This document shows, piece by piece, positions 4,891 through 34,220 of a stretch of DNA of 64,000 nucleotides. Every line of letters begins with the position of its first letter. The stretch's first letter is position 1. The position numbers and the translations under genes are program-made. The DNA lies in NCBI GenBank assembly GCA_947561395.2, contig OX387184.1, positions 15,666,205-15,730,204 of the forward strand, given 5' to 3'. A model generated the notes under the pieces. It searched no databases. It saw only the letters and a program-made list of their open reading frames with translations, and was not told the DNA's origin. This DNA comes from Buxus sempervirens. Its lineage: Eukaryota; Streptophyta; Magnoliopsida; Buxales; Buxaceae.

Positions 4891-5730
4891 CACTACAAAA
4901 CTAAGAGACTTAGAAAGCGACCTTTTACCGGTGGTAAGCATATTCTGCCCCTAAAAGCACTTTTATCGACGGTAAAGACTCTCTCCGCCCCTAAAAGTTA
5001 ACATAACTTTTTCTTCACGCGAAAACCCATGGCGCGAGTTTTTTTTCGAGTGAAATAGCCTTTAGAGGCGGTAACTCCCGCAGGAATATTCGGTTTTACT
5101 GGCGGGACCGCGAGAGGAGTCCTACTGCCGGTAAAAAGTTGGCGGGAACTTCCCGCCAAATAAAAGATTGTTTCTGGTGGTAAATAGCTATCCATAATAA
5201 TACTTTTAACAGCGGTACACGCTCTACCGCCCCTAAAAGGTAGAAAATAAAAATGGAATTAAAAATTTTGTATTTTTCATAATTTCCACAAAAATAAAAT
5301 AAAATATTTACCAGCGGTTTTTTAAAGCCGCCGGTAATAATCTAATAATGCAATTTTTACCGGCAGTTAAACTTCCAGTAAAGATCTCCATTGTATTTAA
5401 AAAAACAAGTATTTTACCGGCAAAAATGGTTAGTAAAAAATAAATAAAAAAAGAAAACTTGAGTTTTAGGGGCAGCCTCCCGCCGGTAAAAGTAAAAGCG
5501 GGAATTTTCCTGCGTGCGTAATGCAAGGAATTTTGACTTTACTTTTAGGGGCGGTGAGGTATCGCCGGTAAAAGGAAAAGCAAGAATTTTCCCGCTACGC
5601 AGTACACGGAAATTTGACTTCACTTTTAGGGGTGGTAAGTGTAGACACCCCAAATTGCATAAACAATCATCAAAAATCATTATCTCCTGGAAAGCCAGCA
5701 CAGAATTTGAAGAAAATAAATTTTTGCCTG

Positions 5731-5871
5731 TATCCGGATACTCAATCCGGATACAAATGCTCCTCCCCTTATCCGGATGGTCGTACCGGATACGTGTGAG
5801 CCTTAGCGTATCCGGTACCATGTACCGGATACCTTAAGGCCCTTTGTTATCCGGTCTGATGTACCGGATAC
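5731..5871. promoter_or_regulatory. Dyad array in the 5' LTR: 4 units, 39-bp period
   Basis: Four 24-bp dyads of the form TATCCGG-N9-CCGGATAC begin at 5731, 5770, 5809 and 5848, exactly 39 bp apart. The first T is part of each unit and the centres vary. The array ends 157 bp upstream of the LTR TATA box. The phasing and repeated half-sites suggest cooperative binding of a dimeric factor, or hairpin formation. The binding role is inferred. Confidence 0.92.
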
Positions 5872-6027
5872 CGTAAGTTTGCTCAAAATTAGGGTTTTCC
5901 GAGAGCTTTTCACTTTTACCATCATGTCCCTCATTAAATGAGGGGAAATCGCGGAAATAACCTTAGGGTATAGGTTTGAGGGGTTCTAGACATTAAGTTG
6001 TGTCTACCAATGACCTTAGCCCTTGCC

Positions 6028-6036
6028 TATAAATAG
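6028..6036 (+). promoter_or_regulatory. LTR TATA box
   Basis: TATAAATAG in the 5' LTR, preceded by GCC. The same box sits at the equivalent place in the sibling LTRs at 42594, 50633 and 55806, and in inverted form in those at 120 and 41800. Transcription of the element probably starts about 30 bp downstream. Confidence 0.8.
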
Positions 6037-6278
6037 GAGCCTCCTCCTTGAGCAAAAGGCACACAACTCTTGTTTTGAATTCTCGCAAAGAAGAACTCCA
6101 AGAGAAGAAGAAAACCGCTGTGGAATCGCCTCCAGCACTCAGGTAAGCCTCAACTTTTCTTTTTATTTTCTGTCTTTACATTCCTAGATCTAGATCTCTT
6201 CTTCTACCTTTCTGTAGTGTAAAGCCTTGTTTGTATGTGTGGAAATCCTTCCCCGGCTCAAAGTATCTCAAGACTCCC

Positions 6279-6297
6279 CTAGCCGTAAAACGTGAAG
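6279..6297 (+). promoter_or_regulatory. Conserved LTR block CTAGCCGTAAAACGTGAAG
   Basis: This 19-bp block is the most conserved stretch across all Tat-type LTRs in the window. Copies occur at 26696, 43254, 43410, 51441, 51592, 56456, 56614 and 58393, with inverted versions near 1092, 1249, 1402 and 47896. Flanking bases can pair (CTCTCTAG...GAAGAGAG or CCTAG...CTAGG), giving a possible RNA hairpin just downstream of the transcription start. It might be a poly(A), packaging or dimer signal. The role is unknown. Confidence 0.7.
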
Positions 6298-7915
6298 GCG
6301 GATCTAGGAGAAACGAGACTGGGGATTGACCCTAGTGCTAGAACCTATGTAGCGTAAGGCCTTTTTGATTGATTGTAAACCGTTCCATATTCAAAGTACC
6401 CTTGATTATCTTAAAGAGAACAGAGGGAAACGATAATGGAACGGAACCCTAGGCTATGCTAGAACCTATTTTGTTGAATATATGCATGTTGTATTGATCT
6501 TGCTTGGTTTTACACTCTTGCACATACATATCACTATTTTGGCGGGGTAGGCTCATATTTGGGGTTTATTGCATTTATTGTGATAAATCTCAAATAAATG
6601 GCCTCAATCAATTCTGAAATGCTTTTCGGATGATTTTAAAGTATTTGTGTTCATCTTGCACGAATTTCATTTTTATCAATTTTCGGACTTGGTTTTACTC
6701 AAAAGTGGCTTAGCTTGACAGCACCTGTACCCCTACTTCGGACGTCCGTAACTTCATCATCCGGATGAATTTTGGGGCGATTCCAGAACCATGGGAAAGG
6801 TGAGGCTGTCTAGTTTATGTCCACCAAATTTCATGAATTTCTGTCTAGCCGATTTTTGACACTTCTCTGTCGAAGTTAAGTGGACAGTTCAGGTCCAAGT
6901 ACAGAACTTGTCACTTCGACGGACCGCCATGTGTTCGTTTTAAGTCCGATTCGAGTGGTTTTTATTTCTGAGTACTCCTTTTTGAGTCTATTTTCAAATC
7001 CAGTTGGTTTCATAATTTTTGAATTCCATTTGAATTATTGGTAGCCGATTTACTCAGAACTGCTCATTTGCATTTTTCTGGGTAAATCTGTGATCTTCGG
7101 GGCCTGTTCGGGGCACCACCCAAGGCACACCCGAAGGGATTTTTGTATGAGGCTAGTTTCTATGGAAAGATGGCCATACAAACTTCAATCACACCAAATT
7201 TCGTGGACTTTTATGTAGTGGATTTTCCTAGACAATTTTCCAAAGTTGCCCACTTACCACTTTTAAAAATCCCCAGCAGCAACTTCAAAGGAGCATAACT
7301 CCTAGATTTTTCATCGGAATGAAATGAAATTTTGTACTAGACTCTTGTCTACCCTAATCTTTCAAATGGATTTGGTTTGGGTCAATTTAGAATCGGATTT
7401 GAATGATTTCAAGGCAAATGGTATACTTTTTACCAAATTTTCCGAATTTGATTTAACTTGGTTTTGAGCAATTTGTGCTTTGATTTCCATCTTTTGAGAT
7501 ATTCCAGAAATGATATTGACATAAGAGAGGATCTAAAATCCATTTAGATCTTCATGTGAAAATATCATACATTAATCCTTTTTCAAGGTTTTCTATGATT
7601 TTTAGCAAGCTTTCTTACTTTATTTTTTGCATGAACATACACTTGGCAACCACTTCGTGTGGATGAATGGGGGTGCCTAACACCTTCCCCCGTTCATAAT
7701 CTAATCCCCTTACCCATCTCTGGACTTGATTTTCAAGTAGGGTTATTTTTCCCCTAGAATTTGTCTTTTGGCTATTTTTGCCTTACTTTTGAACTCTTTG
7801 GTGTCCATTCTCACCCCAAAATCATGAATGGTGGCGACTCTCCCAATTTTTGCGTTGAGCCCGTGTGTTGACGGAGGGACGATCACTCCGGTGATTTTTT
7901 CCCATGTCTCACAAC

Positions 7916-7933
7916 TGGCGATTCTGCTGGGGA
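7916..7933 (+). other. Primer-binding site of the Tat element
   Basis: TGGCGATTCTGCTGGGGA begins two bases after the 5' LTR. TGG start and position are as expected for a tRNA-primed minus-strand start. It resembles the tRNA-Arg type of site described for Ogre elements. I could not align it to a tRNA here, so the tRNA identity is tentative. Confidence 0.7.
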
Positions 7934-9420
7934 GCTGTGGATTTAAGCCATTTTGTGTATATTCATGCTTTTTCATCACTTTTGAATGCTTGCTATTTTT
8001 GTTTCTTTTATTTGTGCATAATGTTGTATTCTAAATCAGATTGGGATGCTCTTGAATTTTATATGAATCAAGTCATGTATATTTTGCTTGATGTTGCATA
8101 AAGGTTGATTTAGGTAAAGCCTATCTTGAAGCATGATTTGGTTGTATTTGGTGATAACATGCTCTAATTTGAATTTTGAATACCATGGTTTGAATATGAG
8201 AATTAGTATCATGAAATCTAGGAGTTCAGAATTTTTGGGGTATTCAAACATGGTTCCCATAAAGCATGCTTTTTGTGCTTAAAAATTTTTGTTATGCCAT
8301 GCCTTTGATTTAAGGTATAGGGGGATTCAATTTGAGCATGAAAACCAAGAGTATGAAATCTGGAATTTTAGTGCACATTGGGGTTTTTTTTAGTATGTTC
8401 ACCAATATACCATGTCAAGTAGTTGCTAGACTTTTAGGCATTAATTTGGGGTATAAAGGATGCACTTTTGAGCATGAGAAATCTGAAAATTTTAGTGCGT
8501 ATTTCTGGAAATTTTAAGCATGTTTTACCTCATTGAAACACTTTGGTATCATGTCAAGTAGTGCTAAAATTTTAGGCTCCAATTTGGGGTAGAAATGGTA
8601 CACTTTGATCATGAAAAAGAGCATGAAATCTGGGATTTTAGGGAATGCTTTTGAGTTTCAAGCATGCTTACATGAGTTGATTGTTGTTTGCACAAATAAC
8701 ATGTTTTGTATACCACTTTTTGGGCATGTAATATTTTTATGCATATTTGGTGCTTGCTTGCTTGTATTTAGCTTCATTATTTTGTCATATATGCCTTGGC
8801 TTGAAGTTGAATGCATGGCTACGAAAAAGAGTGGCAAGGGGCTGGGACGTTGTGAATGTTACCACAATTTAAAATTGCACTTGAGCACTTGAAACAATAT
8901 GCACAGCCTACCCTTTACCTATTAGGAAGTTGAACCATGAATGTGTGTAGCTTGGCGCACCGAGGTCGTGACTTCGGAAAGCGAAAGTGAAAACATTTAC
9001 CTTAGAATTTGAGTCAATGATGTGATGACAATGGGATCTGTGATTCGATTCCGGGCATCACTAGACTTGAGTTCTAAGTTGCCAATTAAGCCAAAACCCA
9101 AAAACCATAGGCTTGAAGGTGGAGAAACACGTTTTCGGCTAAAAGCACACAATTGCGTTTGGGGAATTGGGTGTAAATGTGGGAAGGCCGTTTGCATGTT
9201 TTACAGGCCAAGGTATAATGTGAATACCATATTGAATGAAGGTAATACAAGGTGGCAAGGTAAAGCCATGTTCTTTTCATGAATTTGGGGATTTTGCAAG
9301 TATGATGTCCAAGCCCAATTTGGGGCAAGTTTTGAAGGTCAAATTAAGGTGAACATCAATTGGGAATGAAAAAAATCAAATCTGGTGGAAAAAATGAGTC
9401 AAAAAGGGCCATTTCGGCAA
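7934..9420 (+). other. Untranslated leader of the Tat element, proximal part
   Basis: No long open frame. From about 8320 to 8660 there are roughly three diverged tandem units sharing GAGCATGAAA, AAATCTGG, ATTTTAG and CATGTCAAGTAGT. No extra Ogre-type ORF1 was found here. The rest holds nothing recognised. Confidence 0.5.
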
Positions 9421-9561
9421 TAACCGGCAACTCAGGCCGGTTAATAACAGCTCTAATCATATCCGGTACATATTTCCGGATACAAATACATATGCGGATA
9501 TTCGGTTAAGTTGACCGGATACAATAAGGCATATTATTATCCGGAATGTTATACCGGATAC
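9421..9561. promoter_or_regulatory. Dyad array in the leader: 4 units, 39-bp period
   Basis: Dyads begin at 9421, 9460, 9499 and 9538, again exactly 39 bp apart. The first is a variant, TAACCGG-N9-CCGGTTA. The third has TATTCGG on the left. The second and fourth are TATCCGG-N9-CCGGATAC. The array is not inside an LTR and lies 1.5 kb upstream of gag, so it is an independent copy of the same architecture. Confidence 0.9.
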
Positions 9562-9859
9562 ATTCAAAAAATGCACAAATTGGCTGTTCAGCCCAAATTT
9601 TCAGAATAAAATGCCTAAAACACTGTGGATAATCCTTAGGCACCCCGAAAAGGACATAAGAAATGTTCCCAAAAATACAAAATCAAAAAAAAAATACAAA
9701 AAATAAAATATTCTTTCAGGGTTTAACCTAAGTTTGAAAATCAAAGAGGAAACCAAGGTGTCATATTTTTTGACACCAACTCAACTCAAACATGTGTCAG
9801 TCAAACTCTGGAACTTGAAAACTGAGAAAATTCAACAAATTTGAAGAAAAAAAAAAAAA

Positions 9860-10975
9860 ACCTTTGGTTGGTTATTTTTATCAATCAAATCAAAAAAAAG
9901 TGGGACACTTGGAAGCCCTAGAATATTCCATGAAAACCTTGGTTGGTTATTTTTATCAGTCAAATCAAAAAAAAAAAAAATGAAAACCTTGGTTGGTTAT
10001 TTTTATCAATCAAATCAAAACATTTGTAGGATACTTGGATAGAGTAGTCCAAGAAAACCTTGGTTGGTTATTTTTATCAATCAAATCAAAAAAAAAAAAT
10101 GAAAACCTTGGTTGGTTATTCTTATCAATCAAATCCAAAAAAAGTGGGATACTTGGATAGAGTAGTCCAAGAAAACCTTGGTTGGTTATTTTTATCAATC
10201 AAATCAAAAAAAAAAAATGAAAACCTTGGTTGGTTATTTTTATCAATCAAATCAAAACATTTGTAGGATACTTGGATAGAGTAGTCCAAGAAAACCTTGG
10301 TTGGTTATTTTTATCAATCAAATCAAAAAAAAAAAAAAATGAAAACCTTGGTTGGTTATTTTTATCAATCAAATCCAAAAAAAGTGGGATACTTGGATAG
10401 AGTAGTCCAAGAAAACCTTGGTTGGTTATTTTTATCAATCAAATCAAAAAAAAAAAAATGAAAACCTTGGTTGGTTATTTTTATCAATCAAATCCAAAAA
10501 AAGTGGGATACTTGGAAGCCCTAGAATATTCCAAGACACCTTTGGTTGGTTATTTTTATCAATCAAATCAAAACATTTGTGGGATACTTGGATAGAGTAG
10601 TCCAAGACACCTTTGGTTGGTTATTTTTATCAATCAAATCAAAACATTTGTGGGATACTTGGATAGAGTAGTCCAAGACACCTTTGGTTGGTTATTTTTA
10701 TCAATCAAATCAAAACATTTGTGGGATACTTGGAAGCCCTAGAATATTCCAAGACACCTTTGGTTGGTTATTTTTATCAATCAAATCAAAACATTTGTGG
10801 GATACTTGGATAGAGTAGTCCAAGACACCTTTGGTTGGTTATTTTTATCAATCAAATCAAAACATTTGTGGGATACTTGGATAGAGTAGTCCAAGACACC
10901 TTTGGTTGGTTATTTTTATCAATCAAATCAAAAAAAAAATTGGGACCCTTGGAAGCCCTAGAATATTCCAACTCA
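9860..10975. repeat. Leader minisatellite
   Basis: Tandem units sharing CTTTGGTTGGTTATTTTTA, TCAATCAAATC and TTGGATAGAGTAGTCCAAG. The full unit is about 71 bp. Shorter units with A-runs, and units carrying AAGCCCTAGAATATTCCAAG, are interspersed. Units also hold a small CTTGGA...TCCAAG dyad. Tandem repeats are common in untranslated parts of Ogre-type elements. An AAAAAC microsatellite follows at about 10976-11009. Confidence 0.9.
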
Positions 10976-11074
10976 AAACAAAAAACAAAAACAAAAACAA
11001 AAACAAAAAATTTTTTCTGGCTGGTGTTCACCTAACTTACTGGTTTACATATATAAGGGTGTGACTCAAGTTAA

Positions 11075-14000
11075 GTGGAAGCTAACATGTTCTATTCATT
11101 TTTTTCCTCAGGTACATTCAACCCAGGTACACTTGCAATCATTGCTCCAGTAACTAGATCCAAAGCCAGAACAATGAATACTGAAGAGAACCAAGCCCAA
11201 GCTACCGTCCCTGCTCAGGACTTTACTCAACTGCAGGAGCAAGTGGCCGGTCTGGCCAAAATGCTGGGGGACCTACTGGCGGCTCAGGCCCAACAGGCCC
11301 AAGCCCAGAACCAGGCATCTACTTCTCATCCGGCACCGCCACCTCAGGCTTACATTCCGCCTCCGGTTCAGCCCATGCCTGAGCCCATTTCTGAACCGGT
11401 CCCTGAGCCCATTCTGATCAGGGAAAATACAGCTGAGTCTGAGAGAGAGTTGGAGAAAGAAAAGGCCCGAGATGAGATGGAAAAGAAGATGCTGCTGAGG
11501 ATAGAGAGGATTCAGGCAGAGCTGAAAGAGGTGAAGGGGGGAGGCAGCCATGCAGGCACCACCTTCGAGGACCTGTGCATGTACCCGGACGTCTGTCTAC
11601 CGGCTAAGTTCAGGTGTCCGGATTTTGACAAGTTTGATGGCACGGGCTGCCCATTAAGCCATCTGAAACTATACTGCGGGGCCCTGTGCCAGTTTGGCCG
11701 GGACGATGGAATACTGATCCAGCTCTTCCAGAGGAGTCTGACCGGGTCAGCCCTTCGGTGGTTCGCTACAGTGGACCATGGAAGAATCAGGAGGTGGAAG
11801 GACTTGGCCGATGCTTTCCTGGACCAGTACAAGTTCAACTCTGAGATCGTGCCGGACCGGTACGACATGATGAGGATGACCAAGGGGAAGGATGAACCGG
11901 TACGGCAGTACGCCAAGAGATGGAGAGAGGCCGCCTCCCAGGTCAGGCCACCTATGCAAGAGCCAGAGATGATCTCCACCTTTATGGGCACACTGGGGCA
12001 GCCCTTTTACAACCATCTGGTGGGTCAGATAACCACCAACTTTGCAGCCCTGGTGCAGGTGGCTGACCGGATCGAGGAAGGGGTCAGGTTAGGACGGCTG
12101 ATAGACTACTCTACTCTGACTGGGCAGTCTGATTCCTCTGCCTCCATGGCCCAGAAGAAAGGGGCCGGATTTAAAAAGACGGGGGCCCGAAAAGAAGGGG
12201 AGGTGAACCTGGTCCAGGCTCCTCCCGCCAAGAAGCCACTGCACGTGAACATCTCGGCACCCCAACAGGCCCAGCAGGCCCAGCAGTCGTACCAGACCCC
12301 GATGAATGTCAACTTCTCTCCTTCCGTGCCAGCTAACACAAGGAGGACTTTTTCTAAGGAGGAGCGGGATGCCTGGTTCGCAGCAAGAAAGAACCGGGTT
12401 TTCACCCCTCTACCCATATCTCTGTCCCAACTATTGCCAACCCTGCTAAAGGGTGAATACTTGACTCTGAAAGAGCCCAACCCGAATGCCACCAGGGGGA
12501 GGAATTTTGACACATCGGTCACCTGTGATTTCCACATGGGTGCACCGGGACATTCTACTGACAACTGCTGGGTATTGAAGCATGCAGTTCAGGATTTGTT
12601 GGACCAGAAGGCCTTGGTGTTCAACACTGCTGCACCGGCCCCGTCCGGGAATGATATTGGGCAGAATCCTCTGCCTTACCACAATGGGGCAGGCCCATCC
12701 AACTCCATCACTGCCATATCCACCACCAGAAGGGCCTTTGACCCATCACAGCTTATAGCACCAGTAGGGACCACTGTCCAGGTCCGTTTCTTCCAAGAAG
12801 AGGAAGAGGAGGAGATCAACATGGTCTCCCAAAAAAATAATCTTGCTGCTGAGGACATAAGCTCCTCCTTAAACCGGGTCTCTTCTCTGATGGCCCAGAT
12901 AAATACTGCAAGGCCTCCATTGGTCTTCAATTGCAGTCCACCCACTTATTCCCCATCCAAGCCGTCTAAGGCTCCACTGGTCATCAACCTTGACCCCACC
13001 ACTGCTTCCATCACTTCTTCTGTCCCCACCAAATCCAAACTTCAACCCCTGGTTGTAAATGTGCAGCCAGCCCATGCTATCCCTAAACCGGCCCATACAT
13101 CCCGGTCCAAACTCCAGCCACTAGTGGTTGACATCCCTAAATTAGCCTATTCAGAGGCCGCTGTACCATGGAACTACAGCGAGGGAATCACGGCTACGGT
13201 TCCAATGGTCAGGAACCAGAACCAGGAGGAGGTGAACCTCATGACGAGGTCGGGGAGATGTGCAGGGGGTGAAGAGAAAGAAAAAGAGACAGAAGTGGAG
13301 AAAGAAAAAAGAGAAAATGAAGAAAAAAGAAAACAGAAAGGAAAAAATAAAATGGGAGAAGACACCCCCCAGGGTGCAGAGAATGAGGCAGCAGACCTCA
13401 TAAAAATAATAAAGAAAAGTGAATTTAATCTTGTGGATCAGCTGAACAAGGTCCCGGCCCAGATTTCAATACTGGGCCTTTTGCTGAATTCTGAAAAGCA
13501 CAGGGATGCATTGTTAAGGGTGCTACAGAGTGCACACGTATCCCAGACTATTGATCCGGACCAGCTTGGTAAAATGGTTGGTCAAATCTTGTCACATAAT
13601 GTGATAAGTTTCTCAGAAGGTGAGATCAGCCCAGGTGGGTGTTACCATGTGGACCCTTTGCACATCACTGTGCTTTGTAGGGGCTGCATGGTTGCACGGG
13701 TTTTAATTGACAACGGGTCAGCGTTAAACGTTTGCCCGTTAATCACTTTTACCAAGCTGGGCCTGGACCAGTCAAGGATCAAACGGAATGGGCGGATAGT
13801 GAGGGCTTTTGATAGCTCCAAGACCCACTCCCTAGGGGAGATTGAACTGCCGGTCACAATTGGGCCGAATATCTTTAACATCACATTTGAAGTGATGGAT
13901 ATACCCGCAGCATTCAATCTGCTCCTAGGGAGGCCGTGGATACATTCGGCTAGGGCAATACCATCCACGCTCCACCAGAGGGTGAAATACATAAGAGGGC

Positions 14001-14878
14001 AAAGGGTGATAACAGTCCTAGCCGAAAACTTGGTGCCGCCCATTGTGTCACCTGATGTACCATTAATCAATGTGGACTTGACTGTCGACAAGATTGCATT
14101 CCACTCATTTCAATTTGAGGCGGTAAATTACATACCTGGGGGGTGTGAGAAAAAGAAAGAAAAGGGGACCACTGCAGAAAAAATGGTCAAGAAAGTGATG
14201 GAGAAATACCACTTTCACCCGGGGAAAGGCCTGGGGATCAATCTGCAAGGGATGGTAGAGCCAATCACGGCTAAGAAACTGATCCCCAGGGTAGGGTTGG
14301 GCTTCAAGCCCAGAGGCTGGAGAAGAATGAAATATGAAGAAGGGGAGAGCAGAAGCAAAGGAAAACTCCCACATCTGAGGGTGAACTTTCCAAAACCCTC
14401 CTACATAATCCAAATTTCTCCTCCCATGGACCAGTCCAAACCCCCATACCTAAATGTCAACCCATTTCAAAAGCCTTTTGTTTCGGCCCTACAACCTTAT
14501 AACCTTTCTCCAATACTGGGAGCAGCAGATGGGCCTGGACCACAGCCCGAGCAGCAGTCGGACTATTCTGAAGATGTTGGGGCATTCTTCGCCATGACTG
14601 AAGGTGAAAAGACTGACGGTGACATGGAACTGCCGTTCATTGACTGGGCCGCAGTAAAGATTCCAGAAGAGGTTACTTCTGGACTGGGCCCCGTAGCAGA
14701 AAAGGGCGGTACCCACCCGGTGATGATGGCATCGGATGCTGGGCTTGAGGAGCGGACTTTCCCTATTTCCCCTGCTCCCCAAAATTTTGTACTGAACAAT
14801 TGGGAGGAAACTCCCCTTACCTTTGAAGCAGCGTTAGTTCGGCAAACTGACGCGGCTTCCAAAAAAAAACTCCAATAG
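11075..14878 (+). CDS. gag-pro: gag-pro region of the Tat element
   Basis: An open frame of about 1267 residues. Methionines at 11087 and 11174 are both possible starts. After a Q/A-rich coiled N-terminus come a Tat-type gag domain (about residues 170-350; FDGTGCPLSHLKLY, LFQRSLTGSALRWF, YAKRWREAASQVRP), a zinc-knuckle-like motif (CDFHMGAPGHSTDNCW), a long Pro/Lys/Glu-rich linker, an aspartic protease (VLIDNGSALNVC with the partner FNLLLGRPWIH) and a G-patch-like segment (HPGKGLGINLQG, GLGFKP). Gag forms the capsid-like particle and the protease cuts the polyprotein. The pol frame follows directly; the Ogre group is known to remove an intron between protease and RT. This is a fossil element part; it looks whole. 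Confidence 0.93.
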   Translation: MEANMFYSFFSSGTFNPGTLAIIAPVTRSKARTMNTEENQAQATVPAQDFTQLQEQVAGLAKMLGDLLAAQAQQAQAQNQASTSHPAPPPQAYIPPPVQPMPEPISEPVPEPILIRENTAESERELEKEKARDEMEKKMLLRIERIQAELKEVKGGGSHAGTTFEDLCMYPDVCLPAKFRCPDFDKFDGTGCPLSHLKLYCGALCQFGRDDGILIQLFQRSLTGSALRWFATVDHGRIRRWKDLADAFLDQYKFNSEIVPDRYDMMRMTKGKDEPVRQYAKRWREAASQVRPPMQEPEMISTFMGTLGQPFYNHLVGQITTNFAALVQVADRIEEGVRLGRLIDYSTLTGQSDSSASMAQKKGAGFKKTGARKEGEVNLVQAPPAKKPLHVNISAPQQAQQAQQSYQTPMNVNFSPSVPANTRRTFSKEERDAWFAARKNRVFTPLPISLSQLLPTLLKGEYLTLKEPNPNATRGRNFDTSVTCDFHMGAPGHSTDNCWVLKHAVQDLLDQKALVFNTAAPAPSGNDIGQNPLPYHNGAGPSNSITAISTTRRAFDPSQLIAPVGTTVQVRFFQEEEEEEINMVSQKNNLAAEDISSSLNRVSSLMAQINTARPPLVFNCSPPTYSPSKPSKAPLVINLDPTTASITSSVPTKSKLQPLVVNVQPAHAIPKPAHTSRSKLQPLVVDIPKLAYSEAAVPWNYSEGITATVPMVRNQNQEEVNLMTRSGRCAGGEEKEKETEVEKEKRENEEKRKQKGKNKMGEDTPQGAENEAADLIKIIKKSEFNLVDQLNKVPAQISILGLLLNSEKHRDALLRVLQSAHVSQTIDPDQLGKMVGQILSHNVISFSEGEISPGGCYHVDPLHITVLCRGCMVARVLIDNGSALNVCPLITFTKLGLDQSRIKRNGRIVRAFDSSKTHSLGEIELPVTIGPNIFNITFEVMDIPAAFNLLLGRPWIHSARAIPSTLHQRVKYIRGQRVITVLAENLVPPIVSPDVPLINVDLTVDKIAFHSFQFEAVNYIPGGCEKKKEKGTTAEKMVKKVMEKYHFHPGKGLGINLQGMVEPITAKKLIPRVGLGFKPRGWRRMKYEEGESRSKGKLPHLRVNFPKPSYIIQISPPMDQSKPPYLNVNPFQKPFVSALQPYNLSPILGAADGPGPQPEQQSDYSEDVGAFFAMTEGEKTDGDMELPFIDWAAVKIPEEVTSGLGPVAEKGGTHPVMMASDAGLEERTFPISPAPQNFVLNNWEETPLTFEAALVRQTDAASKKKLQ

Positions 14879-17800
14879 TGGAATGCCATTTCCCTGAAGG
14901 TTCTAATGGGCCTTCGTCTTCAGGGGAATTATGTTTAGAAGGCCCACAAAAAACCCAAAAAGATTTTTCTATTTTTTCTAGGAAATTTAATTTTTTCAAA
15001 AAGGTCCAAACCACTTATGAACCATATAATCAGACCGAATTGGACCAGGTTGAATATGACTTCGACCTTGAGCTCGACTTTGATCTCATGGGGGTCGAAG
15101 AAGAGACCGAGGTCGAAGAAGATGACATTCCAAAAGAAATTGAATACCAATTGGAACGTCATGAAAAGGGGGTCCAACCTAATATTGAGGAGACCATATC
15201 CATAAATCTTGGGACCAAAGATGACCCAAAAATTGTAAAAATCGGGTCATGTTTGTCTGATGTGCAGAAAAATGAAATGTCACAGTTCTTGGCAGATTAC
15301 AAGGATGTGTTTGCTTGGTCATATCGGGACATGCCGGGGTTGGACACTGACATGGTGGTGCACAAGTTGCCAATTTTGCCAGGGGTTAAGCCGATTAAGC
15401 AGAAGCTGAGAAGATTGAAGCCTGAATGGACCTTAAAGGTCAAGGACGAAGTGGTCAAACAATTCCAAGCTGGATTTTTGGCAGTCTCTACATACCCAGA
15501 GTGGCTCGCAAACATAGTGCCGGTACCAAAGAAGGACGGGAAAGTCCGAATGTGCGTAGACTACAGAGACTTGAACAAGGCAAGCCCAAAGGACGATTTT
15601 CCACTTCCACACATCGACATTCTGGTCGATAATACTGCGGTACACAGCCTATTCTCTTTCATGGATGGGTTCTCGGGATATAATCAGATCAAGATGGCTA
15701 AGGAGGATCAAGAAAAAACAGCATTTATCACACCTTGGGGCACATTCCACTATACAGTCATGCCGTTTGGGCTCAAGAACGCTGGGGCAACATATCAGCG
15801 GGCCATGACTGCACTATTTCATGACATGATCCACAAAGAGATGGAAGTCTACGTGGACGATATGATTGCCAAATCATGCAAAGAGGAGGACCACTTGATC
15901 AATCTGAAGAAAGTGTTTGATCGGCTCAGGAAGTACAGTCTACGGCTTAACCCAGCTAAGTGCGTCTTTGGGGCTACATCAGGAAAGTTGCTTGGGTTTA
16001 TAGTGAGCCGAAGAGGAATTGAAATTGACCCGGCTAAAGCCAAGGCCATAATTGAAATGCCAGCACCCAGAACCGAGAAGGAAGTCAGGGGCTTTCTTGG
16101 AAGGATTCAATACATAAGCCGGTTCATAGCACAGCTCACTGCTATCTGTGAACCAATTTTCAAACTTTTGAGGAAAGATAACCGACGGTCTGGAATGAGG
16201 ACTGCCAGCAGGCATTTGATACAATAAAGAGGTATTTGCTGAACCCACCTGTGCTAGTGCCACCAACTCCAGGAAGACCACTGATCCTGTACTTGTCAGT
16301 GTTGGAAACGTCGATGGGATGTGTCTTGGGGCAACATGATGAGACTGGTAGAAAAGAAAGGGCAATTTACTATCTGAGTAAAAAATTCACAGAATATGAA
16401 GCCAAGTACTCACCATTGGAAAAGACTTGCTGTGCTCTAGTGTGGGCCACTCAGAGGCTAAGGCACTATTTCCTTAGTCACTCCACACTATTGATATCCC
16501 GGATGGACCCGCTGAAATATTTATTTGAGAAACCGGCACTAACTGGCAGAACGGCTAAGTGGCAACTACTACTGTCCGAGTTTGATCTCACATACATCAC
16601 CCAGAAGGCGATCAAGGGTCAAGCCATAGCTGATCACCTGGCTGCACATCCTTTGCCAGAATATCAACCCTTGAAGACCAACTTTCCCGATGAGGCGATT
16701 CTGTACACTGAAGAGGAGGACAGTGAGAGTTCTTGGCAGATGTTCTTTGATGGGGCCGCCAATATGAATGGGAACGGAATAGGGGCAGTCTTGGTTAAAC
16801 CAGATGGTTCACATATCCCAATTGCAGTAAAACTGAGATTCCAGTGCACTAATAACATAGCAGAATATGAAGCATGCATAATTGGATTGCAAGCAGCCAT
16901 GGATCATGGAGTAGAGGAACTTGACGTATATGGGGATTCGAGTCTTATCATCTTCCAAACAACTGGTGAATGGAAAACCAAGGATCACAAATTGATCCCC
17001 TATCACCAGTATTTGGAAGAAATAAGCACAAATTTCACTCGAATTTCTTTCAACTATATGCCAAGGGCCAAGAATCAGTTTGCGGATGCTCTAGCAACCT
17101 TGGCTTCAATGGTCAGCATACCAAAAGGAGTAGACATCAGACCACTGGAAATTGAGGTCCGAGATGAACCGGCTTACTGTCTCGTTCTAGAGGGAGCACC
17201 AGAAGAAGAAGCACCATGGTTTCAAGATATCAAAAATTTCTTGAACAGTCGGAGTCTACCAGAAAATGCCACTGCTACTGAGAAGAGGACAATACAGAGA
17301 TTGGCTGGTCAATTTCTGCTAAGTGGTGGACATGTGTACAAGAGATCACATAACGACATTCTGCTCAGATGTGTTGCCAAGGGTGAATCGGAAAGGCTAA
17401 TTGAGACTGTACATGGAGGAGTCTGTGGGCCCCATATGAGTGGACACATGCTGGCTAAGAAGATCCTGAGGCTGGGATACTACTGGACGACCATGGAGCA
17501 TGATTGCTGTATACATGTCAGGAGGTGCCACCAATGTCAAATATATGCAGATAATAAGCATGCACCCCCAGGTGAGTTGCACAACATGACATCACCCTGG
17601 CCTTTCTCTATGTGGGGCATAGATGTCATCGGCATGATCTCCCCTAAGGCATCAAACGGGCACAGATTCATCCTGGTGGCGATTGACTATTTCACTAAGT
17701 GGGTGGAAGCAGTATCATATGCAAATATCACAAGCAACCATGTTATTAAATTTTTGAAGCACAATATCATTTGTCGCTATGGACTGCCAAATGCCATAGT

Positions 17801-18464
17801 ATCAGACAATGCTTCAAATATTAAGAACAAGGACATGAAAAAAATGTGTGAGCAGTTTCAGATCACCCACCACAAGTCAGCTCCGTACAGGCCTAAGATG
17901 AATGGGGCAGTGGAAGCAGCAAACAAGAACATAAAGAAAATCATCCAGAAGATGGTAGTGAGCTACAAAGATTGGCATGAAATGCTGCCACTTGCTCTAC
18001 ATGCCTACAGAACCTCGATCCGAACTTCAACTGGGGCAACCCCGTACTCCCTAGTCTATGGGATGGAAGCAGTCTTGCCCGTGGAAGTAGAAATCCCGTC
18101 ACTCAGAGTGCTCATGGAAGCAAAACTAGAAGAAGCCGAATGGATCCAATCAAGACATGATCAACTTAACCTGATAGAAGAAAAACGGTTGAAAGCGCTT
18201 TGCCATGGACAGTTGTACCAGAAGAGAATGGCCCGGGCTTACAATAAGAAGGTGAGGCCCAGAACTTTCCAAGAAGGAAACTTGGTGTTGAAGAAAATCT
18301 TACCATTTTTGGAAGACCCTCGTGGTAAGTTCAAGCCCAATTGGGAAGGCCCATATGTCGTCAAGAAAGTCCTGTCAGGGGGTGCACTCATCTTAGCAGA
18401 AATGGATGGGTCAGATTTTCCTGAGCCCATTAACTATGATGCGGTAAAAAGGTATTTTCCTTGA
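14878..18464 (+). CDS. pol: pol region of the Tat element (RT, RNase H, second RNase H, integrase)
   Basis: The order is an acidic linker; reverse transcriptase at roughly 15.4-16.0 kb (VPKKDGKVRMCVDYRDLNKA, MPFGLKNAGATYQ, YVDDM catalytic motif); RT-type RNase H at about 16.3-16.7 kb; a second, archaeal-like RNase H at about 16.7-17.1 kb (MFFDGAANMNGNGIGAV, YGDSSLI, ADALATLASM); and integrase at about 17.3-18.4 kb with an HHCC-type finger (RRCHQCQ) and a D,D,E core (WGIDVIG, IVSDNAS, GAVEAAN). The second RNase H is a hallmark of the Tat lineage. About one break is present; otherwise the domains look complete. Transcribed from the 5' LTR. Confidence 0.93.
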
Positions 18465-19393
18465 GTGAATATTCCTAGGAAATGATCCGAGGCCATTTTT
18501 CTTTATTTCCTTCAAAAATTTTAATCCCTAGTCTAGCCAAATTGAGCCGGATCGTTTCTTTGATAAACCCAAACCGGATTTACAGTCAAATTGGGGCAAA
18601 ATCAATTGGGGCAAAAGTGAGGAAAGAAAAAGAAAAAGAGAGGAAAAGCAATGGAAATGGCAAATGAAAGCCAAGTGTGAAAAAAATGCAAAAAATGCAA
18701 TTTGGGGAAAAATGGGTAAATTCATCATAACTGTAAGTCCGGTTGACCTATTTCCACACTTGAAAATTTTGGGCCTTTAATACCCTTTCTTTCATAAACT
18801 GAGCCTAGCCTTTATTTCGTCCTATTTTTAAGCCCTCGGTGATCTTAGCGTGTTCATTCAAATATCAGAGTAAGATCGGTGATGACGGAATTCAGAAGCC
18901 GGCCCTAGTGAAAACCGTAACTGGCGCTAGGGGCAATATTGGCAAAAAAAAGAAAAAAATAAGAAAAATGAAAGAAAATCAGAGGTTGAGTTGATCATGG
19001 GGATCTGAGCTTCAAGCAAAGTGGGCATGAGCAGAATGGGGCAGTTTTGGCCGTTGGGGATGACTCTAAAGGTCCTAAGATGGACGGTTCTGATCCCTCA
19101 GTATTTTCTGGACTACCCTTTTCATTATTTAACCTGGTTCTAATTCCTTTAATTATAGGTGATTAAGTGCATGGACCAAATTTCAAAAAATACAAAAAAA
19201 AATATAAAAAGAAAAATTATACTTTGGCCAGTGATGAGAAATCAAATACTTTTCATAAAACCTTTGTTTTTACAAGCATCTGAGCATTCTGAGGCCAATA
19301 ATATAAAAATTTTATTTTGAATTAAATCCTTTGTCTTTCCACTATTGGAGTTCAATTTTGTACAAAGGTATGAAAAATGTGCAGGAAATAAAG
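18465..19393. other. Spacer between pol and the antisense genes
   Basis: AT-rich, with a purine-rich patch near 18600-18670 and A-rich stretches near 18945-18985 and 19180-19220. No coding potential. It presumably holds the 3' untranslated DNA of both the sense pol transcript and antisense gene 1. Confidence 0.5.
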
Positions 19394-20302
19394 CTAATCT
19401 CCTAGCCGCTCCTCAAGCTCCCGAATCCGAGCTGCCTGAGCTGCAATGACTCCTGAAGCCCCCTCTGCAGCGGGATCACTCAGGAAGGAAATGACCTCAT
19501 CTGAAAGGGCCTGCCTGATCCGCATACTCCTAAGGCTGGCCAAAGTATCCTGGTACTTCTGCCGGATCATACGGACCTCAAAGCGACGGGCCTGCCTCTG
19601 CTCCTCCAGCTTCTCTTCCACGGCAGTACGGCGTGAGATCTGCTCCTCAAGCTGCCTCTCCAGATAAGCACCCTGTATCCTGAGCTCCTGGGCCTCCCGC
19701 ACCCATATTTGCTGAAGCCGCTTATGAGAAGCCCGCTCAGACTCTAGAATGTCCTCATAGGTGGGAGCCAAGACTACAGGAGGATCTTCAGGTACTGGGG
19801 CCTGAGTCTGTATCTGTTCCTTGATCCAGAAGAGATAATCCTTCACATGGGCTTCTGAGAAGACTGGACCATGCATGAAGCGGACATAGGACCACTCCTT
19901 CATCAACCAGGCATTCAGCTTCATAGAAAGGGGCCCAAGACGACCCTCATATCCACATGGGATGATAATCCCCTGGGTCGCTCGGAACTGACGAAGGACC
20001 CGCAGAGGAAGATACAGCACTGCATGCTTTAGGCCCGCCAGAATCAGAAAGTTGCAGTCTCGGAAGCTAATCACTGTCTCCGCATTAGGCTGATAAGTAC
20101 CAGGCCATCTCACCTGGTCATCCTGAAGCGAGCCCAAGAAAGTGAACCAGCCCTGTTTGCCCCCTGGAATGTCGAGGCACCCCCTGTTGCTCATCAAGAG
20201 GGGAACTTTTAGACTCGGGAAGAAGTGTCGATTGATCTCTTCAATCTGGCTCAAATGATCAAGTAGCCAAAGCTGCAAAGGAAGAGAGAGGTGTCAGCAC
20301 AT

Positions 20303-20343
<41 letters not shown>

Positions 20344-21106
20344 CCAAAAAGCAAGAAAAAAAGAAAAAAAGAAAGAAAAAGAAAATATTTTTTTTTACCT
20401 GCAGGATCTGGGCACATGCTAGGAAGCGTTTCGACTTCCTATTGTAGCAGTCGGTTAAGGCCTGATATATCCCAGCTAAAATCATAGGGGCCAACCTCTC
20501 CCGCTCCCTAACCTGGCATATCACGGAAATCAAGGCCAAGTCCACCTCGTCATCCTCCCGTGGGAAAAGCAACTGGTTGACCACTATCAGGGTCAACGCA
20601 TTGAATCGGGCCTCCTTATCTTCTCCCCTCAAAAGCTTCTCAGTCAAAAAAGCCTTAGATAGGGTCAAAAGGGTGTCAGAATCCCCCAAGTCCTTCTTCC
20701 CTATGCCCAAAAAAGTAGAAGCTTCCTTTTTGTAACTGGGCCTTAGAGGTGGATTCACCACCTTCTCATCAAACCTCAGGCCCAGGATGGTTTCCACCTC
20801 TTCAATGGTTGGGGTCATCTCATGGGTCCCAAAACGGAACAAGTTGAGATCAGGAACCCAATGACCAATCATGGCCTCTATAATCTCCCACCTGAAGGGA
20901 ACCTTGGGAATGAGCAGGGTATGGCCTAGATTGGTAGTACCCCATCTCCTCTCCTCATCTAGGGACATAGAGTTAACCCACCTTGTGTAAAAGGAATCCA
21001 CAGGGTTGTACCTAGTGAGATTTGGGGGTTTTGATCTAAAAGGCTGTTTTGCAGGGGAGGCAGTGTGGACAGACAATAATGGGGCAGAAGATGATCCGGA
21101 TTCCAT
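19394..21106 (-). CDS. Antisense gene 1 of the Tat element: plant-mobile-domain/DUF7745-like protein
   Basis: Transcribed against gag-pol. The likely start is the ATG at 21106 (MESGSSSAP), just below a TATA box at 21218-21224. Coding runs to about 20.4 kb, is interrupted by an intron with GT...TGCAG edges and an A/T-homopolymer tract, then resumes at about 20.27 kb to a stop at 19394. The N-terminal part holds HWVPDLNLFRFGTHEMTP, EEVETILGLRFDEKV, LTLIVVNQLLFPREDDEVDL and MILAGIYQALTDCYNRKSKR, resembling plant mobile domain/DUF7745 proteins. The C-terminal third is a Q/R/E-rich coiled coil ending RIRELEERLGD. Tat elements are known to carry extra, often antisense, ORFs. The family assignment rests on motif recall and the function is unknown. 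Codon use is richer in G+C than the surrounding noncoding DNA. Confidence 0.7.
20308..20342. repeat. A35 homopolymer inside the antisense gene 1 intron
   Basis: A run of about 35 A on the plus strand, that is T35 in the sense of antisense gene 1. It lies between the intron's 5' edge and its 3' splice site, where it may serve as a polypyrimidine tract. The length may be unreliable in assembly. Confidence 0.85.
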
Positions 21107-21217
21107 TGGATTTGACGGGAGCAAGCTAGAACTCAAAAGGAGGAAGAAAAAGGCGGAAAAGGGGGTTTCTAAACTCAAAAACTCGTAAAAAATGCCCAAA
21201 TCCCGAGACTGGTTGCA

Positions 21218-21224
21218 TTTATAG
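21218..21224 (-). promoter_or_regulatory. TATA box of antisense gene 1
   Basis: CTATAAA on the minus strand, 13 bp below the nearest dyad (21237) and about 110 bp upstream of the proposed ATG at 21106. Spacing is good for a plant core promoter. This is inferred from sequence. Confidence 0.65.
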
Positions 21225-21236
21225 CATCTTTTAACA

Positions 21237-21376
21237 TATCCGGTAACTCAGACCGGATACAAATGCTTTGGTAATATCCGGATAAGTATACCGGATACAA
21301 AGGATCCCATGAATATCCGGTATAACATACCGGATACAAAGACCAATCCATGTATCCGGTATGTCAGACCGGATAC
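21237..21376. promoter_or_regulatory. Dyad array at the antisense gene 1 promoter: 4 units, 38-39-bp period
   Basis: TATCCGG-N9-CCGGATAC units begin at 21237, 21275, 21314 and 21353 (steps 38, 39, 39). The array abuts the TATA box of antisense gene 1. It has the same core and period as the arrays in the LTRs and leader, but the spacer bases differ, so it is not a simple copy of LTR DNA. Confidence 0.92.
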
Positions 21377-21583
21377 CGAGAAAAAATGCAAAAAAAAGAG
21401 CTAAGGATGAAAAAATCCGAATTTTTTACCTGTTTTACCTGCTTACAAGTCATAATTGCATAGAATGGAAAGCAAAAGATGTGCAAGACATGATAGAATG
21501 AATAAAAAGTTTTTTCATATATATCTGAAAGTTTTTGTACAGGGATGATAAAAATACATGAAAATGAAAAATATAATCCTAAT

Positions 21584-24264
21584 CTACTCCTGTGCAGGAT
21601 CATCCCCGCATCCTCGGCTGCGTCCACCTCTACGGCGTCTCCCCCAAAGGGCTCGGCCTCTAGAGTATGCAAGAATCCGCTCGGCCGCATGGCGAGGATG
21701 CCGACCCACCACCTGCTGAAGATGATACTCCAAGCAATAATCCTCGAGATCCGGGGGAGGAGCAGGAGTAGAATCGGGGGAAGAAGCCTCGGGCTCAGCA
21801 GCAACCGGCCCAACTGGGCCCTCATCCAAAGCATCCTCTGCTCCCGCAGCTCCAGAAGGCCCAGCATCAGCAGCAGAGGGGCCAGGATCAGAAATAGCTG
21901 AGTCCACAGAAAAGAGAAAAATCAGAAGATTCAGATATAAGGAAGAATAAAAGAGGAGAATGAAAAGAAGATCATACCAGGAATGTCTGCAGAAGGAGCA
22001 GGGGGATCCGGCTCGTCAGGATCAGCAGCTGGGACATCCACAGGATCAGAGGCCCGAGCAGGAGATGGGTCAGGAATCAGGAAATCATGCTCAAAGAAGG
22101 CATCCTGATCATGGACCGGGCCCTGCACAAGTCAAACAAGCATATCAGAATAGCAGAAACAGGAAAATAATGAAAGAAATGAACATATGAGAAGGCCAGA
22201 TACCTGTCTAGACTGGAGCTCAGCAACTAGGGCCTCCAGCTCCCTGATCCGGGCATCCCGCTGGGCCACGACCGCATCGTGCTCCGCGATCATATCATCG
22301 ATCGCAGCCCGCTGGCTCTCGAACCGGTCCCGAATGGAGTTCAGCTCGTGTACCTGCCAATAAGAACGGAAGCATGGTCAGAAAGGCATAAGGAAGGAAA
22401 AGAGGATAAAAATGGGAAGAGTACAAGGCTTACCGTGTCCTCATGGATCCGGATACGGATCCCGCCAATCTCAGTCACCCCAGCACGAGTGGGTCGATCC
22501 ATCAAGCATCCGATAGACACCCGCTGGAACCACTCGTCATAATCTCCAGCTACTGTAAGCCCCTCCACATCCAAGAAGTGATCGAACTGATCAATATCAA
22601 AGCCCGGGAGGAGTGTGTCGGGACCCACAGCAGGAGGAGGGACGGGGATGCGAAGAGCGCCAGTGTGCTGGTAGTACAGGCGCTCTCCCAAGTACATCAC
22701 CCTACCAAGCCTCCCAAGGAAGCACTGGTAAGGCTGACGTCGGAGATCTCTCTCAAAAGCATCCTGTACTGCCATCTCACGGGCAACTCCGACATCCACG
22801 TCATCTGGACGGGATAGAATGAGCTGCAAAGAAGCAAAGTGGTCAGATACAGTCAAGATACAGGAAAGAAAATAAAAGAAAAAAATAGAGGACTTACATC
22901 AGATCGGCGTGCACGGTCTAAGTGCACCCGGGCAGTGCGAGGCTGGCTCCTATCGGCATCTCGAACCTGGGCCGACCATCGCAGGGCCACAGGAAAATCT
23001 GCAACCTCAGGAACTGGAGAGGAGCGGAAGAAGGTCATATAGGTGTACATGAACACCTGGCAAAAGAAAAATCAGTCAAGAAAAGATAAAGCCTAATGAA
23101 TTAAACCAGACAGATGAATGCAATACCTGTAGAATCTGCCAGAAGAACCGGCTGCTGACTCCATCACCTCTCGGAGATGCTAAGCCCCGAACTGCTCGGC
23201 ACAGCCCGGCCAAGATGTTCCCACAAATGAGCCGACCCCATGCTAGCTGGCGGGTCTGATGGAGATCTCTCAAAGCGTCCAAAAAGAGCGGACTGACACC
23301 AGTAGTATCCTCCGGGAAGAAGCAGCTCCCCAGCATCAGCAAGAATACGTGCCGGAAGATAGGAATAAATGCAGCATCATCCACAGCCACAGTCCTATGT
23401 CTCCCCTCGAAATGTCGAGCCAGACTCTCCCGCAGCCAGCTAATGGAGAGCCGGCCGCTCCGCCTATCCCAAGCAGTAGGTGGCAGGGCCTGATATCCCA
23501 GGAGAAGTCCCATATCCTCCGCAGAAGGCCGCTCCAAGACGATGGTCCGCCCCGTCAGAGGAATGCCAGTAATCATCACAAAATCGGAGGGGCGGATCCC
23601 CAACTCCACGTCCGGCAAATGAAATGACTGCGTCTCGGGGAAATATCTCTCCATCATGGCAAAAATAAGCGGACGGTCGGCTCTGAACGATGGAATACTG
23701 AGGAAGTGATCCAGGTGGCACCTCCCAAACTCCCGCCTGAGTGCTGGAGAAAGTGCCCGTGCCAACTCGCTGAATCTCCCCCAGCTGCCGCGCAAGTGGG
23801 AAGAGTAGTAGGGAAGCGGCACATCGGCCCTGATGCACATAGAAGGATGGCTATCCAAGCCATGGAGGAGCTCTGTATCATGAACAGAAGCCCTCAACTC
23901 CTCAGAGACCCCTGCCAGAGCTACAGCAACCCCCTCTGGAGCCATATCTCTGGCTCTGCCTCGGCCTCTACCACGGCCTCTCTCGCCCTCAGGGGCCTGA
24001 TCCTGAACTCTGCCTCTGCCTCTGCCTCGACCCCGAGCCGGTGCAACCACGGGCTAAATTTCAAAGAGAAAGGTGTGAAGATTGATGTAGGAAGAGAATG
24101 AAGAAAGGAAAATTTTGAAAGCCTACCTCAGCAGAGCTCTCCCTGGAGACATCCAATGGCTCAGACAAGGTAGCACTGGAGCTCGCCTCTGTCCGAGCCC
24201 GCGAACTAGAGGGCTGATCAGCAGGGTCAGCCTCCTCTCTAACTCGGGAACGACTCCTAGCCAT
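21584..24264 (-). CDS. Antisense gene 2 of the Tat element: plant mobile domain protein, multi-intron
   Basis: On the minus strand from an ATG at 24264 (MARSRSRVREEADP) to a stop near 21594. About seven coding stretches are separated by short introns with GT...AG edges. In order: a Ser/Arg-rich start; an RG-rich tract (GRGRGRGR); a plant mobile domain at about 23.9-23.1 kb (FVMITGIPLTGRTIV, FIPIFRHVFLLMLGSCFF, WGRLICGNILAGLCRAVRG); further helical parts; a coiled coil (DARIRELEALVAELQSRQ); and an acidic Pro/Asp-rich tail. PMD proteins include nuclear MAIN/MAIL1, and PMDs are known in Mutator-like and gypsy elements. A nuclear role is inferred. No obvious decay was seen. The next gene downstream is antisense gene 1 at 19394-21106, with its own promoter. 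Confidence 0.82.
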
Positions 24265-25426
24265 CTACATACAGCAGGGAAGCGTCCTATGAGATCTAAT
24301 CCTACTTTGCTTTGAATCTAAATTCAGTTTAAATTTATCAGGAATTCTACTTGGTTTTGATCTAGATTCATTGCACATTTGTTAGGAATAATACTTGGCT
24401 TTTGGGTCTAGATTCAGTTCGTAGGACCTTGGTCTCTTCAAAGCTATTGCCAAGAATTCTAACTTAATTTTGTGGTCTGTTGCAGGTCAAGTGTTTCTGG
24501 AAAAATTTGAGACAGATGCAAAAGATCATAATAAGTGGCTCTCCAGACACAAGCTGGTCTCAAGAATCATCAAGGATTACCAAGAAAAAAATCAATTGCA
24601 AGAAAAGAAATGCCACATGATCAAAAAGTGGCCATCAAAGCTGAAAGGAGCTAATGGCAGTACAATGTCAGTAATTCAGAGAAAATATCAAGGTGATCAT
24701 GCAAAGAGAAGTCAAGAACCGGTCATGGACAGACAGAGCATCACATTATTCAGAATAGATTGAAAAAAAAAATCCAAGCATACACCAGCAGTCTAATTAT
24801 AGCAAATGGGACCAAGTTCAGAGCATGCAACCGGGAAATTCAACATACAGTCAAGAAAATTGGCATGCAATCAGCAGGATACCATCAGAGGAAACCATGG
24901 TGATCAAATATTGCCGCATAAAGTCCAAAAAGTCCAGAATCAACAGAGCAATCAGACCAAGGATCCAATGGCAAATGAGCATCTCAAGCATGATCACGAA
25001 GCAATCAAAAGCAATTGACAACAATTCACGAAATGAAAAAGTGGGAATTCGGCTTGGGCTAAAAAAGAACAGGTCGATTGAAGCATGCCAAGCTGTGATC
25101 ATTGTTTGATTAGCAATAAGAAAAAAGGAACCTGATTGGAGGTAAAGGAATCGGATTGGTCGCCGGAGGAGGATGGTTCAGATCCAAAAGTCGCCGAGCT
25201 CGCCGGAAATCAGATGCCAAGCTAGGGCTCGGCCACTGTTGTGAAGGAAGAATCTCCGAAATCAGCACGTCGCCGGAGCTAAGAGACTCGCCGGAGGTCG
25301 CCGGAACTGATAAAGTTCGTCGGAGAAGGTAGGAGGATCGTCGGGCGTCGAAGCAAAGAAGGAGGGAGCCGGTCTGAGTAATCGGAGCAAGAAGAAAAGA
25401 AGAGGAAAAGTCGCGGTCGCGCGCGA

Positions 25427-25435
25427 CTTATAAAA
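25427..25435 (-). promoter_or_regulatory. TATA box of antisense gene 2
   Basis: TTTTATAAG on the minus strand, 8 bp below the first dyad of the array at 25443-25505. It lies in a locally GC-rich segment. Inferred from sequence and position. Confidence 0.55.
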
Positions 25436-25442
25436 CCTGCGG

Positions 25443-25505
25443 GATCCGGATACTCAGACCGGATACCCGCAGACCCTTGATTATCCGGATACACTTACCG
25501 GATAC
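25443..25505. promoter_or_regulatory. Dyad array at the antisense gene 2 promoter: 2 units, 39-bp period
   Basis: Two units begin at 25443 (first base G instead of T) and 25482, exactly 39 bp apart, each ending CCGGATAC. As for antisense gene 1, the array abuts a minus-strand TATA box. Confidence 0.9.
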
Positions 25506-28724: not shown

Positions 28725-28739
28725 TCTCTCTCTCCCTCT

Positions 28740-34119: not shown

Positions 34120-34220
34120 CCGCATACTCAGGGCGGTCTGGACTTGACCGCACTTGGTATGCGGTTTGGTCTAAACCGCACTGCATCTAAGGTTCAAACC
34201 AGACCGCATAGTAAATGCGG
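34120..34220. promoter_or_regulatory. Dyad array in the second-family LTR, 28-bp period, CCGCA core
   Basis: Left half-sites CCGCA begin at 34120, 34148, 34176 and 34204. Right half-sites GCGG begin at 34133, 34161 and 34217; the third right half is worn. The period is exactly 28 bp. The array lies downstream of the TATA-like box at 33211, unlike the Tat-family LTRs. Confidence 0.85.

Follow-up and report, generated by a model that had tools for sequence, protein, structure and literature searches.

In a 64,000-nucleotide stretch of Buxus sempervirens DNA (contig OX387184.1, positions 15,666,205 to 15,730,204; hereafter the window, numbered from its first letter) we found that the long terminal repeats (LTRs) of a complete retrotransposon, element A, and of its relatives carry tandem arrays of one palindromic unit, CCG-N11-CGG, repeated at 28 or 39 base pairs (bp), and that such arrays also stand just upstream of two antisense genes of element A. 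Judged from their layout, the arrays are probably operators for some dimeric protein, and the sites would suit a dimer, as a preliminary description of this DNA had suggested. That the operators are read by a factor encoded by the element itself, the candidates being its own antisense PMD/coiled-coil proteins, is the reading we favour, tentatively and at slightly less than an even chance.

Dyad arrays of element A

Judging by its content, the window consists of plant DNA. Element A spans 5640-28330, is complete, and is flanked at both ends by the 5-bp target-site duplication GTAAG. Its LTRs of 2274 bp (5') and 2261 bp (3') show no substitution across 2261 aligned bases; their sole difference consists of 13 gap columns, a deletion within the 3' LTR array, and the element is a very young insertion. 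The LTRs and the arrays of element A are as follows.

5640..7913, plus strand: 5' LTR of A, with the TATA box CCTATAAATAGG at about 6028
5730..5871, plus strand: LTR U3 array of A, four dyads at 39-bp steps, last unit with a CTGA spacer, ending 160 bp before the TATA
9420..9561, minus strand: leader array of A, four dyads (two exact, two diverged) at 39-bp steps, with a CTGAG unit on the minus strand and lacking a TATA in the 350 bp to either side
21236..21376, minus strand: gene 1 array, four exact dyads at steps of 38, 39 and 39 bp, ending 16 bp before TATAAAT at 21223
25442..25505, minus strand: gene 2 array, two dyads 39 bp apart, ending 13 bp before TATAAG at 25432
25369..25385, plus strand: lone CCG-N11-CGG unit located downstream of the TATA of gene 2, with CTGAG in the spacer
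26070..28330, plus strand: 3' LTR of A, with the array at 26161-26288 that has lost 13 bp relative to the 5' LTR

The preliminary description had listed 14 dyads of the form TATCCGG-N9-CCGGATAC in these arrays, and they proved to be real: eleven were exact and three were diverged, and no exact dyad appeared in 20 first-order Markov copies of the window. Of the diverged dyads, the one at 9421 reads TAACCGG..CCGGTTA, with both arms altered and the symmetry retained, the one at 9499 has one TATTCGG arm, and the one at 25443 has a GATCCGG arm. The 39-bp step that had been described was found throughout, except for a single step of 38 bp from 21237 to 21275. Dyads had also been reported for the 3' LTR, where we located three exact units (26187, 26226 and 26265) and a remnant at 26161, which is explained by the loss of 13 bp between two CCGGATAC copies.

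A common CCG-N11-CGG rule across the window

When the window was scanned for CCG-Nk-CGG with k from 0 to 40, k = 11 gave 48 matches compared to 2.6 expected, far above all other values of k. Smaller peaks at k = 37 (25 matches), 39 (23) and 24 (15) are a consequence of the array periods, and a peak at k = 13 (13 matches) falls outside that explanation. With the 3' LTR of A excluded, 45 units remained compared to 3.5 expected. Three of the 45 (11742, 34035 and 42101) resemble chance singletons, which is about the number expected, and all others lie in or beside arrays of A or of its LTR-similar relatives A', B1, B2, B3, C, E, D and D'. Among 64 triplets and 22 spacings, CCG with k = 11 ranked first by observed/expected ratio. 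The autocorrelation check that had been proposed for the 39-bp step bore out the phasing within the window and added a second period, as 20 unit pairs were spaced at exactly 28 or 39 bp (9 and 11, respectively) and none in 200 shuffles, again with the 3' LTR excluded.

An array was present in the U3 of all eight related LTR copies that were read (A twice, A', B1, B2, B3, C and E), and no CCG-N11-CGG unit was found in 2490-5639, 28331-34000, 35000-41800 or from 59300 onward. The expectation that the arrays would be confined to this one element family fails in its narrow sense, since related LTRs share the CCG-N11-CGG plan with other flanks. The arrays of the relatives are the following.

48347..48489, minus strand (LTR start 49059): array of the related LTR A', four units at 39 bp with half-site TATCCGAC, at the same place in U3 as in A, ending 170 bp before the TATA
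42698..42798, plus strand: 28-bp U3 array of solo LTR B1 (LTR 42594-44418, CACCC flanks)
50727..51004, plus strand: 28-bp U3 arrays of LTR B2, in which the LTR start is duplicated
55911..56010, plus strand: 28-bp U3 array of LTR B3
1856..1900, minus strand: 28-bp U3 array of the minus-strand LTR C
57864..57947, plus strand: array of LTR E, with two exact units at a distance of 39 bp, a third that by eye is degenerate and follows after 28 bp, and a TATA 203 bp on
44464..44564, plus strand: 28-bp array of the older element D, with a CTGAG end unit and no TATA downstream
34120..34220, minus strand: 28-bp array of D', a relative of D, with a CTGAG end unit and no TATA downstream
45404..45613, minus strand: further 28-bp arrays of D, in which the unit closest to a minus-strand TATA at 45386 is degenerate and stops 17 bp short of it

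Some of these copies are nested or rearranged. LTR B3 (55806-57620) is seemingly inserted in the U3 of LTR E, near the array, with ATATT on both sides (by reading), and B1 likewise lies inside the older element D with CACCC on both sides. In LTR B2 a 177-bp direct duplication (50607-50957) repeats the LTR start and part of the array. Downstream of the 44.5-kb array, tblastn pointed to a remnant resembling gene 1, but at E = 0.8 the match was too weak and was not used.

The half-sites are spaced 14 bp apart throughout the 28-bp arrays, and alternately 14 and 25 bp apart in the 39-bp arrays. The 11 bp by which the two periods are separated correspond to about one helical turn, so that by this geometry neighbouring sites would keep a similar rotational setting. 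CCG and N11 are constant across families and the adjoining bases are family-specific: TAT-CCG-G in A, TAT-CCG-AC in A', mostly A or C before CCG and TA after it in B and D, and mostly A before CCG and CA after it in C and D'. Next to the array, LTR A' is 83.7% identical to A across 535 aligned bases with 47 gap columns. The four A' units, at the orthologous place in U3, all depart from A alike and on both arms. Neither genome_contigs nor viral_contigs contained the A-type double dyad. In viral_contigs a generic 39-bp CCG array pattern was met at 43 loci and set aside; three of these were below 50% G+C and looked like ordinary tandem repeats, and the other 40, judged on G+C only, were taken as chance.

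Position of the arrays and a CTGA-marked unit

According to the preliminary description, arrays mark every promoter of element A. This was accurate for the antisense genes, where the arrays stand beside the TATA at 16 bp (gene 1) and 13 bp (gene 2), and was too general for the rest, as no TATA lies within 350 bp of the leader array and the LTR array lies 160 bp off its TATA rather than beside it. For seven LTRs, the distance from array end to TATA was 160 (A), 170 (A'), 202 (B2), 203 (B3), 203 (E), 205 (C) and 210 bp (B1), and for the 45.4-kb promoter of D it was 17 bp, the values for B2, E and D being measured from a degenerate last unit.

Of the 48 units, 10 have the tetramer CTGA at one fixed spacer offset, the copy in the 3' LTR included, compared to five for the tetramers ranking next, and a stricter pattern, CCGNNCTGAGTANNCGG, gave four matches and none in 100 shuffles. 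Units with this spacer occur in A, A', D and D', and in none of B, C and E. In the LTRs of A and A' and at both antisense genes, the last unit before the promoter is a CTGA unit, with a second one at the far end of the gene 1 array. In the arrays of the leader, D and D', the CTGA unit comes last when the array is followed along the strand that reads CTGA (minus in the leader). The sequence after the leader CTGA unit resembles, by eye, that after the D and D' units, a hint that the arrays lacking a TATA may form a class of their own.

Conservation and ancestry of the arrays

In the 14 units of A, leaving out the 3' LTR, the information content is 1.6-2.0 bits at the 15 positions of TATCCGG and CCGGATAC. 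Of the 23 positions in spacer and linker, 21 have at most 0.74 bits and the other two 1.05 and 1.06. Spacers had been said to differ between arrays, which they do, but they differ equally within arrays, with a mean agreement of 3.47 of 9 positions within arrays (19 pairs) compared to 3.64 of 9 between arrays (72 pairs). Copying within arrays is therefore not what preserves the core, and homogenisation of this kind was rejected as the main force in A.

The first units stand apart, as ACTCA occurs in the first spacer of all four arrays of A and the similarity among first units was 37 compared to a mean of 22.3, a value matched in 0.8% of 20000 random orderings, or about one of the 128 possible. 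Because of this shared similarity we read the four arrays as descendants of an ordered common ancestor that probably diverged afterwards outside the half-sites and their spacing. The 14-nucleotide linkers showed no ordinal homology (p 0.73), which speaks against a simple copied array. The earlier proposal that core and period are kept by selection or homogenisation, and not by one copy event, can thus be retained in part: spacers and linkers have drifted around conserved half-sites and a conserved period, without copying within arrays, but an ordered ancestor appears to be shared.

Antisense genes of element A

The gag frame of A (11075-14878) encodes Retrotrans_gag and G-patch domains (Pfam; G-patch 1.3e-06). 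Despite the identical LTRs, its pol is spread over two frames that break near 16.2 kb (16182-16236), a split due either to a recent break or to a sequence error. In the leader, long tandem repeats of 71/119 bp around TTGGTTGGTTATTTTTATCAATCAAATC occupy 9847-10971, with CpG nearly absent nearby. Both antisense PMD genes sit between pol and the 3' LTR.

19394..21223, minus strand: antisense gene 1, TATAAAT at 21223, DUF7745/PMD exon 21106-20399, one GT-AG intron by reading, exon 2 from 20272
21584..25432, minus strand: antisense gene 2, TATAAG at 25432, PMD exon within 24053-23125, about six GT-AG introns by reading

Exon 1 of gene 1 matched DUF7745/PMD in Pfam with E values of 2e-17 and 5.7e-13, and the PMD match of gene 2 was 2.2e-14; Pfam scans of the antisense frames returned PMD/DUF7745 only. 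For exon 2 of gene 1 a 93-residue C-terminal helix was predicted by a single-sequence model, with a block-mean predicted local distance difference test (pLDDT) score of up to 97 and a model mean of 51.5, so that this model is informative for the long helix only. The two PMD exons had no relative in viral_contigs, and seven pattern matches there included no relative either. Since PMD is reported for 57% of Ogre elements (PMC6317226), element A is taken to be Tat-type and probably Ogre-like.

Discussion

As operators, the arrays would be contacted by a dimer through the two CCG half-sites, 14 bp apart in CCG-N11-CGG, with the family-specific bases beside each CCG setting the address, and adjacent dimers 28 or 39 bp apart, in similar rotation, could stack cooperatively. 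Because there are sites before the LTR promoter and, at closer range, before both antisense promoters, one factor might control the genomic RNA and both antisense genes of A together, and might so form the self-contained circuit suggested in the preliminary description. The PMD proteins would be natural candidates for this factor, as they are predicted to be made from array-bearing promoters, at least one of them has a predicted long helix, and there is a motif precedent in the Arabidopsis PMD proteins MAIN and MAIL1, as the genes that are down-regulated in their absence share a promoter motif (PMC7156037). Such proteins could give the element self-recognition, either as autoregulation or as local anti-silencing of the kind that VANC provides for VANDAL. 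Flank contacts that change by family while the geometry stays constant are what a co-diverging element-encoded protein would predict; they are not predicted by a single host factor, and a family of host factors could produce them. As a more speculative generalisation, which we regard as possible although doubtful, Tat-type LTR retrotransposons may share the operator code CCG-N11-CGG at 28/39 bp, with the flanks of each family rewritten in step with its antisense PMD protein. This protein would then recognise the promoters of its own family only and would provide self-specific anti-silencing or autoregulation, a VANC-like system of independent origin.

Several observations weigh against an element-encoded reader. 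The sample is one window in which readable antisense genes occur in A alone, and arrays are also present in LTRs that have no antisense gene at hand. There is no TATAAA or TATAAG within 350 bp of the leader array (both directions), of the D array at 44.5 kb or of the D' array (one direction each). The family-specific flank words come from few copies that are kin by descent, so their counts are not independent events. The PMD exon of gene 1 gave no usable single-sequence structure model (mean pLDDT 36.8), and a sequence search of the two PMD exons of A against the PDB gave no match.

The most serious alternative is that one or more host transcription factors bind CCG-N11-CGG and that the arrays are enhancers kept for switching on by host cues, as in other plant LTRs. 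Repeats in plant LTRs are usually bound by host factors, arrays occur in all eight related LTR copies that were read, some of them without an antisense gene, and the constant CCG-N11-CGG frame would suit one factor. The palindromes of Sireviruses were matched to stress-related sites by the authors who described them (PMC2829016). On the other hand, the flank words are strongly kept in A but diverge between families, a change that one host factor does not need. No plant factor with a CCG-N11-CGG site is known to us, although no search for one was made. Taken together, we consider host-factor enhancers a credible explanation, yet one that probably does not hold.

It is unlikely that the arrays are silencing targets, with promoters that become methylated or bound by a host repressor because CG/CCG-rich tandem repeats attract either one. 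CpG observed/expected ratios were 1.1-1.7 in seven arrays compared to 0.03-0.6 in eight other stretches, and since CpG is retained in the arrays, methylation of the sites may matter. Furthermore, of the eight units with one decayed half-site, six had changed by C-to-T or G-to-A, as methylated cytosines decay, three of those at CpG. The high CpG is, however, partly a consequence of the CCG core itself, and the element would gain nothing from strictly keeping such sites at several places.

Even less probable are stem-loops in the genomic RNA, serving packaging, dimerisation or translation. Every dyad is able to pair as RNA, and by coordinates the leader array, both antisense-gene arrays and the 3' U3 lie within the genomic RNA. 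Fixed distances to the TATA on both strands and a period difference close to a DNA helical turn argue against this, a U-G pair on the plus strand is kept in only three of the eight decayed half-site pairs, and Rfam at gathering thresholds matched no family in the window. Functionless turnover of palindromes and tandem repeats is very improbable: slippage does occur, as the nearly identical A' units and the 13 bp lost between repeats in the 3' LTR indicate, but turnover would homogenise or decay all positions alike, whereas the half-sites and spacing of A persist while spacers and linkers differ even within an array.

The preferred reading, operators for an element-encoded dimer, has partial parallels in known systems. 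Fungal zinc-cluster proteins of the Gal4 type read CGG-N11-CCG, inverted CGG triplets with an 11-bp spacer, as coiled-coil dimers; the sites in the window share the inverted triplets and the 11-bp spacer but have the opposite polarity, and no zinc-cluster protein was among the Pfam hits of A.

The nearest precedent is found in another superfamily, in the Sireviruses (Ty1/copia), for which the accessible part of the report describes palindromic CGG/CCG repeats upstream of the LTR TATA and before ENV that are element-specific and CpG-rich (PMC2829016). Element A likewise has CGG/CCG palindromes clustered ahead of both the LTR TATA and an internal gene. The Sirevirus sites are shorter (e.g. CGG-N5-CCG), and that part of the report gives no fixed 28/39-bp phase (PMC2829016). 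Sireviruses are copia elements with a sense ENV, whereas A has Retrotrans_gag, antisense PMD genes and an Ogre-like layout, which rules out A as a Ty1/copia Sirevirus.

The targets of VANC in VANDAL elements (MULE DNA transposons) are tandem noncoding motifs that evolve together, according to the available portions of two papers (PMC5735166, PMC10398659). Family-specific motifs in noncoding tandem arrays that changed together between relatives, and a candidate element-encoded reader, are also seen here. The VANC motif is YAGTATTAY, VANDAL is a DNA transposon, and no palindrome is mentioned in those portions (PMC5735166, PMC10398659); they report VANC binding as demonstrated, whereas binding to the arrays of A is a prediction from sequence.

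Antisense genes between pol and the 3' LTR link A to Retand, Grande and Ogre, as far as the accessible texts describe them. A Retand survey reports antisense genes together with tandem arrays, the genes encoding TRP28 and not PMD (PMC11963269), and gene23 of Grande has its own promoter and encodes a nuclear protein (PMC7264820). Phased dyad arrays at antisense promoters are not described in the accessible parts of these sources (PMC11963269, PMC7264820, PMC6317226). In the titles and abstract beginnings listed by searches of open-access papers, we found no account of CCG-N11-CGG arrays, of 28/39-bp phasing, or of phased dyads in elements of the Tat/Ogre type.

Ogre elements commonly carry antisense PMD genes. 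Should the arrays be the targets of these genes, it becomes testable why the elements retain them, with the flank words of neighbouring families as a built-in test of specificity. Even if a host factor reads the arrays, CCG-N11-CGG at 28/39 bp would offer a simple means of recognising the promoters of large retrotransposons in plants.

A peroxidase-like exon, with no CCG-N11-CGG unit near it, was found on the minus strand at 36947-37576 (Pfam PF00141, 2e-46) and apparently belongs to a host gene.

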